The notes below the pieces were generated by a model that did no database searches, was not told the origin of the DNA, and was given only the letters and a program-made list of their open reading frames with translations. From Magnetospira sp. QH-2 (GTDB lineage Bacteria; Pseudomonadota; Alphaproteobacteria; Rhodospirillales; Magnetospiraceae), in contig NZ_FO538765.1 in the NCBI RefSeq assembly GCF_000968135.1, forward strand, positions 2,061,819 to 2,125,818: a stretch of DNA of 64,000 nt, written 5' to 3'. This document shows positions 2 through 3,943 of this stretch, piece after piece; the first letter of the stretch is position 1; each line of letters starts with the position of its first letter. The translations under genes and the position numbers were made by a program.

Positions 2-862
2 GGCAAATCAACTGCCCCGCCCCCCGTCACCGCTGTTGACCCAGAAGGTCGGATCACCCAGGCAAGAAGCGAAGGTGGGCGCCGCCTGACCGGGGACAAG
101 ATCACCGAGAATGACATTGTCTCCATCAACGGAGGTGAATCCACCATTAAGGCCTGGGAAGCAATGGGCTATCTCCAGCGCAACCACGATGGTTCGTTCT
201 CCATGACGGATAAGGCCACCGGTATGGACAAGCTGCGTCCGAAGGGCATCAAACCCGGCAACCCTACTGAAGCTGCCCCCGAGACCGGGGAGGCAGCCTC
301 CGACGATGAAGATACGGATCAGCCCGCCATGGAAGGGCTAGACGGAGATACCGAGACCTTGATTACCGAAGTCGCCAATGGAGCCCAGCCCAGCGACGTT
401 CTGAGTTCCATCATGTCCGTAGCCAAGACTGGCGAGTTCAATCAAGCCGCAATGGGGCGCATTGCTTCCTCTTTGGGGCAGGAACCGGAAGCGGTGATGG
501 AGAAAGCGAACAGCGTCCGTGCTGCCTTCGAATCCCAGGCCATCCGAACTGTTGAAAAGACAGGCCTGAGTAGCGACGACGTGTTCGGTTGGGCCTATGA
601 GCATGAACCGAAGATGATGCAAGAGGCAATCCGGCAACATACCAATTACCGCCATACCGAGGGCTACCAGCCGGTCATTCAGAAGTACGTCCAGAACCTG
701 GATACGATCAATCCGGACATGATCCTGAACGCCCAGTTCGGTGAAGGTGTCGAAGCTTTCCGGGACGACGGGGGACGGATTGTTCTCAAGTCCGAAAAGG
801 GCACTGTTCCTTGGAAGACAGCGGTACGGATAGGGATGGTCTCTCTTGGCCGCGCCCGATGA
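2..862 (+). CDS. 5'-truncated hypothetical protein of the integrative element
   Basis: The frame is open to the left edge, so the true start lies outside the window; 286 codons are visible before the stop. I do not recognise the family. The visible product has a Pro/Thr-rich stretch, then an acidic low-complexity segment (EAASDDEDTDQP), then a predicted alpha-helical domain (SDVLSSIMSVAKTGEFNQAA onward) ending in a basic tail. There is no signal peptide or membrane segment. An internal ATG at 164 could be a start, but no Shine-Dalgarno stands out there and the upstream frame looks coding. It lies with other small unknown genes on the tRNA-Pro-inserted element, so a phage or island accessory role is an inference from position only. 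Confidence 0.6.
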   Translation, partial: GKSTAPPPVTAVDPEGRITQARSEGGRRLTGDKITENDIVSINGGESTIKAWEAMGYLQRNHDGSFSMTDKATGMDKLRPKGIKPGNPTEAAPETGEAASDDEDTDQPAMEGLDGDTETLITEVANGAQPSDVLSSIMSVAKTGEFNQAAMGRIASSLGQEPEAVMEKANSVRAAFESQAIRTVEKTGLSSDDVFGWAYEHEPKMMQEAIRQHTNYRHTEGYQPVIQKYVQNLDTINPDMILNAQFGEGVEAFRDDGGRIVLKSEKGTVPWKTAVRIGMVSLGRAR

Positions 863-1031
863 ACCGGTAGCAGGCATCAAGTGTATGTCGTGGCTGTGGC
901 CGCCAGACTGGAATGTGTTTCAAGAGGTAGTCGGCCAACGCCACGGCGGGCTGCCCTTCCGCATCCTGTGGTTCGACAACGGGGAGCAGGTTCGACAATT
1001 CACTGTTCCAATCCACGGCTACGACACCTGA
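846..1031 (+). CDS. possible small protein, element-borne
   Basis: A 61-codon frame starts with TTG at 846 and overlaps the end of the preceding gene by 17 nt; an in-frame ATG lies at 885. The product is rich in aromatic residues (SWLWPPDWNVF) and ends in a strand-like segment (FRILWFDNGEQVRQFTVP) that resembles the 'F.D..G..V' motif of the small proteins encoded at 1235, 1541 and 2061. That resemblance is the main reason to regard it as real. A weak AGGGA lies upstream of the TTG. Function is unknown. Confidence 0.35.
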   Translation: MAAPDEPVAGIKCMSWLWPPDWNVFQEVVGQRHGGLPFRILWFDNGEQVRQFTVPIHGYDT

Positions 1032-1065
1032 CCAACAAGAACGAAAACACAAGACGGGAAACACA

Positions 1066-1329
1066 ATGCCCGAGTTCGAATGGCAGACAGAGAAAGCCTT
1101 GAAATGGCGGCGGAAGGATACGGCGACATGCCGCGCTGCCCGCCTCAGATCCAAATACCCAGACTATGACCAGACCAAGGACCCCTATGGGCCATGGTTT
1201 CAAGCATTCCAGAGTACGAGAAAGGAACGAGCGTATGAGCGCGATTTCACAAGACGAACGCCTGAAAGCAGGCAAGACGACGATTCAGGTGAATCGATCA
1301 GGCCCCCGAACCCGGGTAAGCTTCGTTGA
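1066..1329 (+). CDS. possible small basic protein, element-borne
   Basis: An 87-residue frame begins with ATG preceded by GACGGGA at a usable spacing. The first half (MPEFEWQTEKALKWRRKD, then SKYPDYDQTKDPYGPWFQAF) looks protein-like. The last 95 nt overlap the better-supported gene starting at 1235 in another frame, and the corresponding C-terminus is low-complexity and charged. Either the two genes overlap, as is common in compact phage-like DNA, or only the first half is under selection. No family is recognised. Confidence 0.4.
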   Translation: MPEFEWQTEKALKWRRKDTATCRAARLRSKYPDYDQTKDPYGPWFQAFQSTRKERAYERDFTRRTPESRQDDDSGESIRPPNPGKLR

Positions 1330-1537
1330 TTCCCGTGGCCGCGAGGTGGTCACCTACGATGACGAAGTGGTCCGCTTGGTCGAGACCATCCGTGATGGAT
1401 CGGGCGAAGTGCAGCCCATCAAGCGGGTTGAGAGTAAGGGCCTGACTGATGTGAATACCGGCAAGCCCCGGCTGCCCAAAGGCTGGGAATCCAAGATGAT
1501 CGATTTCAGGCTTCCGCCCGGCTTCCGGTACGGTTGA
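1235..1537 (+). CDS. small hypothetical protein with shared 'F.D.RG..V' motif
   Basis: A 100-residue protein. The ATG at 1235 is chosen over an upstream in-frame ATG at 1166 because AAAGGA lies about 9 nt ahead of it and because the extra residues look like out-of-frame translation. Residues ~22-50 (TRVSFVDSRGREVVTYDDE followed by VVRLVETI) form a predicted beta-hairpin plus helix, closely paralleled in the protein encoded at 2061 (ITFTDVRGHTVRTDSNEA followed by MTKLFEAL). The C-terminal half contains KPRLPKGWESK and ends in PPGFRYG. Unknown function; part of a run of small genes on the tRNA-Pro-inserted element. Confidence 0.65.
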   Translation: MSAISQDERLKAGKTTIQVNRSGPRTRVSFVDSRGREVVTYDDEVVRLVETIRDGSGEVQPIKRVESKGLTDVNTGKPRLPKGWESKMIDFRLPPGFRYG

Positions 1538-1540
1538 TCA

Positions 1541-2020
1541 ATGAAGGATAAAGTCAGGATGCAATTCAAGAGCCAGAAAATGGTGACCCTGCTCAATGGG
1601 GACACCCAGACCGCCACGCATACCACGACCACTGTATTTCGGGATGGTACGCGGAAGGTCACCACCACCAGCTATCCGCTTACGCCTCAAGAGGTCAACA
1701 GCGTTCAATCTGTGCCAGAAGACGATACCGCGAAGAGCTACAGCAGCCTATCAATCCCAGCGGTTGAGGCCGAACCTCATTTCGGTGATCTGAAATTCCC
1801 GCCTACTTCGATCCCAACAGACGACAGCGAGACCGAGGACAGTGGTGATGGTGAAGATTTCCACCGGAGCGATGTAACCAAAATCAAGCAGAATGAAAAC
1901 GGCTCCTATGTGGTCTGGTTCTGGGATGGCTCCTGCCATGAGCTGCCACCCGAGGACCACGTAAAGTACCTCTATGACATGCTCCGGGACCTCAACGAAG
2001 CCAAGCGCATGGTGCACTGA
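1541..2020 (+). CDS. hypothetical acidic protein, element-borne
   Basis: A 159-residue protein starting 3 nt after the previous stop, so probably co-transcribed with it. It has three parts. An N-terminal strand-rich segment (VTLLNGDTQTATHTTTTVF) is followed by an acidic linker (~90-108, TDDSETEDSGDGEDF) and a C-terminal segment (GSYVVWFWDGSCHELPPEDH, then VKYLYDMLRDL) that repeats the hairpin-plus-helix pattern of its small neighbours. No catalytic motif, signal peptide or transmembrane segment is visible. I do not recognise a family; the shared C-terminal pattern suggests common ancestry with the proteins encoded at 1235 and 2061. Confidence 0.7.
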   Translation: MKDKVRMQFKSQKMVTLLNGDTQTATHTTTTVFRDGTRKVTTTSYPLTPQEVNSVQSVPEDDTAKSYSSLSIPAVEAEPHFGDLKFPPTSIPTDDSETEDSGDGEDFHRSDVTKIKQNENGSYVVWFWDGSCHELPPEDHVKYLYDMLRDLNEAKRMVH

Positions 2021-2060
2021 CCGCCCTTGCCCCTCTCAATCAGATGAAGGAACTCTCTCC

Positions 2061-2255
2061 ATGCTCGCAGGCAATCAAACCAAAGTCACAGTTCGCAGGG
2101 CTCTCGGTCCCTCTGGCAATTCCGCCAAGGGTCTGGAGATCACCCGCTATGGAAACGGTGGAATCACTTTCACCGATGTTCGCGGGCATACCGTCCGCAC
2201 CGACTCCAACGAAGCCATGACCAAGTTGTTCGAAGCCCTGAAGGCTTTGAGCTGA
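2061..2255 (+). CDS. small hypothetical protein with 'ITFTDVRGHTV' motif
   Basis: A 64-residue protein. The ATG at 2061 is preceded by GAAGGA about 9 nt upstream; the frame is open further upstream to 1974 but those residues translate the end of the preceding gene. Nearly the whole protein is the unit seen in its neighbours: a strand (GLEITRYGNGG), a hairpin (ITFTDVRGHTVRTD) and an amphipathic helix (NEAMTKLFEALKAL). A single-domain protein of this size could be a DNA- or protein-binding accessory factor, but nothing in the sequence fixes a function. It is the last gene before the convergent integrase. Confidence 0.65.
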   Translation: MLAGNQTKVTVRRALGPSGNSAKGLEITRYGNGGITFTDVRGHTVRTDSNEAMTKLFEALKALS

Positions 2256-2435: not shown

Positions 2436-3791
2436 CTATTCTTCTTCTTCCGCTTCTAGCTTCACGTCCGACAGCTCCCCGATTTCCGCCTCAACCCGCT
2501 TAATTCCCTCCAGCAGCATCTTCCGGCCTTTGTGGCCTCGGTTGTAGACAGCAGCAGCGAGTGTGGGCGCGGTATGGCCCATCATGCGAGACCATTGGAC
2601 AGGATCGAGCCCGGCATCTTCGCAGGCACCAGAGAAGGTTCGACGTATACTATAGGTGTCCACGGGCAGGCCCTTCAGTGCCTCACGCCTCCAATCATTG
2701 GCATGGCGTTGCAGCCGGTCCCACCGCTTTCCATCCACCCCTTGCGGCTCGACATCGTGGAATAGCAGGCCCTTCTTAGCCTCTTCCACGCGCCTCTTCA
2801 GCACAGCGACTGCCTCCTTCGAAACCACAGGCATGACGCGTGTATTGGATTCCGTTTTTCCTTTGAGGATGGTCAGCCACCCCACCTCCTCTTCCTCATC
2901 AAACAGGACCCTGTCCGTGGTCAACCGGCAAATATCATCCTGACGAATGCCGGTGTGCCAGAACAAGGTAAGGACATCGAATACCGCCTGTTTGTATTTG
3001 CTCTTTCGGGTATCAACAAAGGCGCGGTACTTCGCAGCCTCCTCAGCCGTCATGGCCCGAAGCTCTTTGACCGTGCTCCCCCGCTTGGCTTCCCCTGGTA
3101 CATCCTGAAGGAGTTCGCCCCACGGGTTGGGGCCATCATGCAGCTTCCGGGCCTTCATCCACTTCCAAAGCCTGTTGAGGCTACCCACCTTCCGGTTCAG
3201 CGTGTTGGGGGCAATGACCGACTTGTTACGGGTTGGCGTGGCCTTGAGATGATCCCACCAACGGACGGCAAGATGCTCATCCACGTCTTGGGCCGGGATA
3301 TCGCCGGACCAGTCAATGAAGGCCTGAATATCCCGCTCATACTGGTACATCGTCCCCTTCTTGATCCCCGTCGCGGCCACCTTCCATTTCTCAAGGGCTA
3401 TGGACAACGGGACGGCCTCATTGGTGGCGATCCTCCAGAAGCGGGATGCTGCGGCAGGCCCCTTGCGCTTCTTCACTCGCTCTGTCTCAGCCTCCAGTGC
3501 ATCCCAGAAGCCCGGGTTGTCCATCTCTTGGGACATAGCCAGAGCATCTTCAGTGGGATCATCCAAGGTGGCCAGCTTCGCCTGGATTCGGGCGATCACC
3601 GATAGCTTCTTCCGATTGGCCTCCCGGAGATCCCGTGTGTCGAGACCAACGACTACCTCTTTCAACCGCTTCGTTCGGCGGTTGAAGGCCTTCGCAGCCA
3701 ATTCCTGGAGTTCAAAAGGGACGAAGACAACAGCAGCCCACCCGCCGCCGCGTCTCTTTTTCAGGTTTCGAGTGTTCATGTCATCGCTCAT
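2436..3791 (-). CDS. int: tyrosine recombinase (phage/island integrase)
   Basis: A 451-residue protein with an N-terminal basic segment, a SAM-like core-binding domain (~135-225, IALEKWKVAATGIKKGTMYQ) and a C-terminal catalytic domain. The catalytic set is visible: Arg in HTGIRQDDICRLT, Lys in LKGKTESNTR, a YSIRRTF box in place of the usual HxLRHTF, His in MMGHTAP and the nucleophile Tyr in AAVYNRGH. The replacement of the first box-II His by Tyr occurs in some integrases. Start choice is open: ATG at 3791 or 3779, since a GTG at 3812 adds seven residues and none has a strong Shine-Dalgarno. It reads away from the tRNA-Pro gene whose 3' end lies ~75 nt upstream, the standard position for an integrase whose attachment site is that tRNA. 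Confidence 0.92.
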   Translation of the reverse strand: MSDDMNTRNLKKRRGGGWAAVVFVPFELQELAAKAFNRRTKRLKEVVVGLDTRDLREANRKKLSVIARIQAKLATLDDPTEDALAMSQEMDNPGFWDALEAETERVKKRKGPAAASRFWRIATNEAVPLSIALEKWKVAATGIKKGTMYQYERDIQAFIDWSGDIPAQDVDEHLAVRWWDHLKATPTRNKSVIAPNTLNRKVGSLNRLWKWMKARKLHDGPNPWGELLQDVPGEAKRGSTVKELRAMTAEEAAKYRAFVDTRKSKYKQAVFDVLTLFWHTGIRQDDICRLTTDRVLFDEEEEVGWLTILKGKTESNTRVMPVVSKEAVAVLKRRVEEAKKGLLFHDVEPQGVDGKRWDRLQRHANDWRREALKGLPVDTYSIRRTFSGACEDAGLDPVQWSRMMGHTAPTLAAAVYNRGHKGRKMLLEGIKRVEAEIGELSDVKLEAEEEE

Positions 3792-3805
3792 ATGTGTAAG
3801 GTTAC

Positions 3806-3828
3806 GGTACACACACGGACACGTACAC
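3806..3828. promoter_or_regulatory. short direct repeats upstream of integrase
   Basis: Three similar heptamers (GGTACAC, CGGACAC, CGTACAC) with roughly 8 nt period lie directly upstream of the integrase start, followed by an AT-rich tract. They could be an operator or arm-type integrase sites; only the repetition is seen. Confidence 0.3.
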
Positions 3829-3866
3829 TTCTTTTTTTCTTTTATATATCAACTACTTATAAGGTT

Positions 3867-3943
<77 letters not shown>

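Follow-up and report, generated by a model that had tools for sequence, protein, structure and literature searches.

Do the small open reading frames (ORFs) crowded at the left end of the window hold tandem copies of one domain, and what kind of element carries them? The window is the whole 64,000-nucleotide stretch of the Magnetospira sp. QH-2 genome analysed here (C1:2061819-2125818; contig NZ_FO538765.1), and an element integrated in tRNA-Pro reaches into it with its right end, over bases 1 to ~3,866. The initial annotation had quoted peptides from four ORFs, here called p846, p1235, p1541 and p2061, as variants of one duplicated hairpin-plus-helix unit; all four exist at or near the starts it gave, and they close a plus-strand gene run which faces a minus-strand integrase. 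We explain two of them, p1235 and p2061, as paralogues of a new family of proteins of ~60-100 residues with one small domain each, an antiparallel strand meander followed by an amphipathic helix, carried by phage satellites in which they would serve as adaptors. To this explanation as a whole we give a probability of roughly 0.4. The four ORFs are:

846 to 1031, plus strand: p846, start codon TTG 846 or ATG 885; of a separate small family (WxxPxxW ... PVHGYD), not of the hairpin-helix family.
1235 to 1537, plus strand: p1235 (100 amino acids), group 1 of the hairpin-helix family, domain at about residues 13-58 (bases 1271-1408).
1541 to 2020, plus strand: p1541 (159 amino acids), an orphan between p1235 and p2061 with two predicted beta-beta-beta-alpha units.
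2061 to 2255, plus strand: p2061 (64 amino acids), second member of the hairpin-helix family, with a predicted four-strand meander and C-terminal helix.

That p1235 and p2061 are homologous members of one family is close to certain, because profiles built without either of them find both and because hhalign joins their two groups (probability 97%). The profile of five p1235 relatives recovered p1235 at 2.3e-14 and p2061 at 4.3e-5 among 2,133 ORFs, and that of four p2061-type relatives recovered p2061 at 2.4e-10 and p1235 at 0.0047. The profile search suggested in the initial annotation thus bears out a shared domain for these two and not for p846 (E 710) or p1541 (E 13). Relatives are present in seven other genomes. 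By blastp against nine fetched loci, p1235 has relatives in L050, L053, L054 and L056 at 2e-11 to 6e-6 and in L051 at 0.03, and p2061 has them in L050 at 1e-8 and in L055, L051 and L053 at 0.002-0.014; the L052 member was added by eye and is matched at 0.0028 by a profile not containing L052. The family consensus is ETxxAGxTxLxRxxxGxVSFxDxxGxxVxxxxxxxxKLFEAIRxGSG, in which only an F and a G are invariant in all 11 rows. Three close pairs show an excess of synonymous substitutions (nonsynonymous rate, dN, 0.10-0.15; synonymous rate, dS, 0.22-0.54).

The shared pattern first described for all four proteins holds in its strict form, h-x-F-x-D-x-x-G-x-x-V, for p1235 and p2061; it is absent from p1541 and p846, and from 36,587 amino acids of 82 long control ORFs of the same genome and of G243. 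p846 carries aromatic-x-D-x-G-x-x-V. A looser pattern fits p846, p1235 and p2061, and in p1541 it fits the N-terminal hairpin only, not the stretch originally quoted; a random control fragment of 61-159 amino acids contains it with P 0.02-0.06, a post hoc value, the pattern having been drawn from these same proteins. Among ten pairwise comparisons p1235-p2061 alone stands out (score 38, shuffle p 0.011; the other nine p at least 0.11). This score was reached by 1.2% of 5,000 unrelated 100x64 fragment pairs, and a score of 38 or more by 0.5% of control 64-mers against p1235 and 0.1% of control 100-mers against p2061. Taken alone, the window data would be suggestive of kinship between p1235 and p2061 and would leave that of p846 and p1541 to the others unsupported. 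In a coding test p1235, p1541 and p2061 scored 0.24, 0.24 and 0.28 bits/codon, respectively, against a wrong-frame 95% point of 0.12 and maximum of 0.23 (250 windows); p846 scored weakly (0.07). An antisense ORF (1751-2017) reaches 0.20, so that the test is not decisive for p1541.

As to tandem duplication within the element, p1235 and p2061 are indeed paralogous, and their duplication is probably older than the window's element rather than fresh, because G527 has both types too, arranged likewise, and its second copy is the nearest relative of p2061 (blastp 1e-8; tree support 91/79, unstarred, on a long branch). One copy of each type occurs in the elements of the window, G527 and G541; the p1235-type comes first in the window and G527, and the order is reversed in G541. 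The tree of 12 domains resolves little, with one of its eight inner branches starred.

No significant match for the small proteins was found in Pfam, NCBIfam, PHROGs, PADLOC or the PDB, in keeping with the earlier remark that no family with this signature was known; by these searches the hairpin-helix domain family appears to be new. Weak single matches to Pfam aRib, Pfam DUF2671 and NCBIfam FosG (E 0.01-0.1) were rejected. Searches for relatives with single proteins gave no result in viral contigs, GTDB contigs, phages or plasmids; p2061 alone found only itself in 60 relatives' genomes, p1541 and p1235 alone gave extra matches only at chance level in 240 genomes of the class, and the two-row profile A4 gave six extras, again at chance level, in 385 genomes. 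These direct searches having failed, the relatives were reached by searching first with the neighbouring protein p305. The resulting family profile, A5, matches 13 of 317 genomes, eight of them by construction as they had given rows to it; new are a second G541 locus and G530 (5e-10, a short ORF without p305), and matches in G524 (2e-4), in G465, G499 and G500 (0.004-0.009) and in G038:C46, inside a 964-amino acid frame, were not counted as firm. The second G541 locus (L077; G541:C1:446000-462000) contains an integrase fragment, recognized by eye, one p1235-type gene and a tRNA-Ser, and no p305; it is perhaps a stripped-down element end.

The other features at this end of the window are:

2 to 862, plus strand: 3' part of the gene for p305 (305 amino acids), which starts 56 bases left of the window; family in 10 of the 317 genomes of the order.
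1066 to 1329, plus strand: ORF p1066, overlapping the p1235 gene and probably no gene (coding score -0.03 bits/codon).
2436 to 3812, minus strand: tyrosine integrase of the element (Pfam PF00589, 9.3e-8; phrog_1, 1.1e-28).
3866 to 3885: right attachment repeat, 20 bp, with an exact copy 14,758 bases leftward, outside the window.
3867 to 3943, minus strand: tRNA-Pro (TGG), the integration target.

ORF p1066 was rejected on its coding score; blastp against the nine loci also gave it no relative at E<=0.05. The window's element measures 14.8 kb and has the small-protein genes at its attachment (att) end. Repeats of this kind were sought in five relatives with a nearby tRNA, and bound elements of 6.85 kb in tRNA-Glu (L051), 7.19 kb in tRNA-Ser (L052) and 7.80 kb in tRNA-Gly (L053); none was found for L056 or L058. 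The element of G527 ends as the window's does, with a minus-strand integrase and then a tRNA (Glu). The p305 gene is known from 11 loci, namely the window, nine others of the order and G243, and in eight of them a p1235/p2061 family gene lies ~1 kb or less downstream on the same strand. Seven have a serine recombinase close to the window's, and some have antirepressor genes. Where present, the genes follow a shared order: small terminase, p305, p846, p1235/p2061 family. The element of G243 (L014:3976-11794) has two serine recombinases and a p305 relative and no small family gene; an ORF flanking it presumably resembles comM. On the opposite strand of L004 (11407-12948) there is a 513-amino acid coiled-coil protein with apparent membrane segments, weakly matching phrog_30912 (1.1e-8) and SMC-type coiled coils.

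Left of the window, and in the G527 element, are genes of T7 type:

L004:18934-19224, about 0.8-1.1 kb left of window base 1: T7-type small terminase (maturase A-like), with no large terminase seen in the element.
L004:9308-11278, at the far left end of the window's element: gp15-type ejection protein (656 amino acids; hhalign 99%).
L050:863-6570, in G527's element downstream of the small family genes: gp15- and gp16-type pair.

Seven T7-like phages, one of them a partial record and six whole, supplied 1,756 ORFs, which were compared with the 2,462 of the loci. At E<=1e-4 this gave matches for integrase, antirepressor, MarR-like, maturase A, gp15-type and gp16-type genes, an endonuclease I (L057), an antirestriction-like gene (L078) and one antisense ORF. 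Portal, capsid, tail tube, large terminase and polymerase were not found in the fetched loci at this threshold, with queries from these seven phages only. The endonuclease I-like ORF (5e-14; L057:4123-4659 in reverse-complement coordinates) lies in the p305 locus of G605. Small terminases occur in the window's element (phrog_891 'terminase small subunit', 1.8e-9), L052, L053 and L054, all of them with no large terminase or head genes found. A profile of these four ranks the seven phage small terminases (maturase A) first among the phage ORFs, the phage maturase A profile in turn ranks the four first among the locus ORFs (7e-9 to 8e-8), and hhalign joins the two at 98.6%. The 656-amino acid protein and its G527 relative match phage proteins in the gp15 position, of which only that of ProddE is annotated as internal virion protein C. 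G527 also encodes a gp16-type protein (phrog_6651, 2.8e-42) which is matched in 77 phage records; in all, three p305 loci have T7-type ejection genes.

In 385 genomes of the class p305 has one relative besides itself, and it was the two-row profile made from this pair which found the family in the 10 genomes of the order, its own included. Comparison of 10 p305 rows with 13 T7-type scaffold proteins by hhalign gave P 1.3e-4 (probability 54%), where the best of nine control families gave P 0.019 and the reversed control a probability of 0.2-0.4%. Among the phage ORFs the p305 profile has the CRP-125 scaffold as its top match (E 2.4e-4) and two more scaffolds second and fourth (E 2.1 and 3.4). 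The resemblance of p305 to the T7-type capsid scaffolds is a remote one.

The elements are probably satellites of T7-like phages, since they are small, bounded by tRNAs and equipped with an integrase, and four of them have a small terminase with no large terminase or head genes found. The helper would be a T7-like (Autographiviridae-type) podovirus. On its infection of the cell, or on induction, the tRNA-integrated element of ~7-15 kb would be excised by its own integrase, and its own T7-type small terminase would pick the element DNA for the helper's packaging motor. The scaffold-like p305 might influence head assembly, and some elements would add their own ejection proteins. p1235 and p2061, encoded in the same gene run just downstream of p305, could be small, probably self-associating adaptors that bind an assembly or packaging protein of helper or satellite; this role is a guess from their neighbourhood, and service in helper takeover, read from gene position, is a tentative assignment that we think has somewhat the worse of the odds. 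Slightly more doubtful still is the fullest version of the proposal, in which T7-like podoviruses of Alphaproteobacteria-type hosts have a hitherto undescribed satellite family that brings a T7-type small terminase of its own along with a scaffold-like protein, some members adding their own DNA-ejection proteins, and p1235 and p2061 are dedicated helper-takeover proteins with a new domain.

Several observations weigh against this proposal. Packaged satellites might be expected among phage and viral sequences, yet 50,697 phage records contain no credible p1235/p2061 family member, and neither this family nor p305 has a credible match in IMG/VR, a scan that depends on exact short peptides. Five more distant pairs show little synonymous excess (dN/dS 0.45-0.94). 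For p305, the reverse search with the scaffold profile gave nothing below E 3.2 among the locus ORFs, the remaining six scaffolds all stay above E 1 with the p305 profile, and Pfam holds no match at E<=10. The small terminase occurs in just four of the 11 p305 loci and the gp15-type gene in three, one of them partial. Several relatives are decayed, p305 being split in L051 and L055 and short in L058. Finally, induction, packaging and helper are predictions from the genes, and a part for p1235 and p2061 in assembly is a guess from the neighbourhood.

Among known satellites the nearest in kind are the phage-inducible chromosomal islands (PICIs), which have a small terminase without the large one. 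The elements resemble PICIs and capsid-forming PICIs (cf-PICIs) in their specific integration site (here an att site with direct repeats), own integrase, small terminase without large terminase, possible assembly gene and size range. They differ in that the terminase is of T7 type and some carry ejection-protein genes. The comparison draws on descriptions of PICIs and on the gene content of the elements, and we would place them with phage satellites as a known kind and claim no PICI membership. The PICI features other than the terminase are those described in PMC6092414. According to PMC10803314, the phage-inducible chromosomal minimalist islands (PICMIs) are likewise small integrated satellites and have virulent phages as helpers; unlike the present elements they are found in Vibrionaceae, and they encode no capsid-remodelling genes, while 'terminase' is not a word of that main text. 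A limited search of the open-access literature, whose silence counts for little, found no satellites equipped with a terminase, scaffold or ejection gene of T7 type.

The strongest competitor, itself unlikely, derives the elements from T7-like temperate phages with an integrase, by loss of the head and tail genes, and sees in p1235 and p2061 leftover accessory ORFs. Such phages (Roseobacter CRP phages, pelagiphages, ProddE) do share maturase A, gp15/gp16-type proteins and integrase with the elements; the antirepressor and MarR-like genes match as well, and the decay of several loci would fit. They are complete phages of 37.9-42.6 kb, and the seven compared contain no p1235- or p846-type ORF at E<=0.3. 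Against the remnant explanation, no credible counterpart of the p305 and p1235 families turned up among the phage records searched, and much the same short set of genes is seen at different tRNAs and in several genera; in four elements it is accompanied by exact att repeats (20-47 bp).

A less probable role for p1235 and p2061 is at the att site itself, as a recombination directionality factor or a single-stranded DNA-binding (PC4/whirly-like) protein. This would explain the place of the family genes next to att: they are last before the tRNA in L051, L052 and L056, and in the window and L054 the integrase is the next gene after them. In G527, however, gp15/gp16-type genes separate the family from the integrase, and L053 has a separate excisionase-like helix-turn-helix gene (phrog_66, 2.1e-9). 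The predicted folds bear on this role as well. AlphaFold models of p2061 and p1541 were made from single sequences. The model of p2061 has strands at 7-10, 26-29, 35-38 and 44-47 and a helix at 50-62 (mean predicted local distance difference test, pLDDT, 67; predicted template-modelling score, pTM, 0.45); that of p1541 has strand-strand-strand-helix twice (mean pLDDT 54, C-terminal unit ~70). For p2061 there was no PDB match at E<=0.001 and none with Z of at least 5. Its match to PC4-like YdbC and SP_0782 (Z 3.1) and those of p1541 to Pur-alpha (Z 4.2) and BPSL1147 (Z 3.1) favour action at att, but all Z values are under 5 and tied with unrelated folds, and charge is not conserved in the family (predicted isoelectric point 5.0-10.2). 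Polo-box, LolB, KhtT, YkuJ, AcrF1, PC4-like and chemokine-like folds were all rejected, their Z values staying below 5 or, in the Foldseek search with p2061, their E exceeding 0.1. The family profile aligns over 44 positions with the PDB 2rd1 lipoprotein, which we take to be YgdI/YgdR-like, at E 0.22, a lead and not a significant match. With the PC4/whirly and YgdI/YgdR-like small folds the family thus has a strand meander in common and no significant sequence or structure match. The combination of strand hairpin and helix is widespread (905 viral models match that of p2061 at E<=10, none at 0.001), and we would assign p2061 to no fold class.

Small genes at the ends of elements often serve in anti-defence or against competitors, and p1235 and p2061 might be accessory proteins of this sort; AcrF1 is among the weak fold matches (Z 4.0). 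There is, however, no PADLOC match, and the position of the family is kept in eight of 11 loci, which to our impression is unusual for such cargo, so that we regard this as improbable.

Descent of all four proteins from one duplicated domain is very improbable: p1541 and p2061 have similar predicted topologies, their models both weakly match viral A0A5B8WKM9 (E 0.0055 for p1541, with a TM-score of 0.21, and 0.29 for p2061) and the C-terminal unit of p1541 gives an hhalign P of 0.001 (probability 21%, a weak match; profile E 3.9), but the shape is a common one, p1541 as a whole scores at chance level against the family profile, and p846 scores below zero bits and has relatives of its own. These p846 relatives (blastp L050 6e-6, L055 8e-5, L051 0.003) share the motif W-x-x-P-x-x-W ... 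P-V/I-H-G-Y/F-D, and p846 was accordingly rejected as a member of the hairpin-helix family. In the four of the 11 loci that have it, its family comes after p305 and before the p1235/p2061 family, and the copy in the window may be shortened. The viral structure just named, the best match of p1541, was rejected on its TM-score. No relative of p1541 was found; it lies between p1235 and p2061, whose G527 counterparts are 12 bases apart.

If the elements are what we propose, a family of satellites parasitises T7-type phages, and a satellite with its own ejection proteins, as that of G527 appears to be, might alter both the DNA that is packaged and its entry into the next cell. The profiles A5 (p1235/p2061) and A1 and A6 (p305) can be used to find such elements, and the p1235/p2061 family may be the marker of a virus satellite of a new kind.

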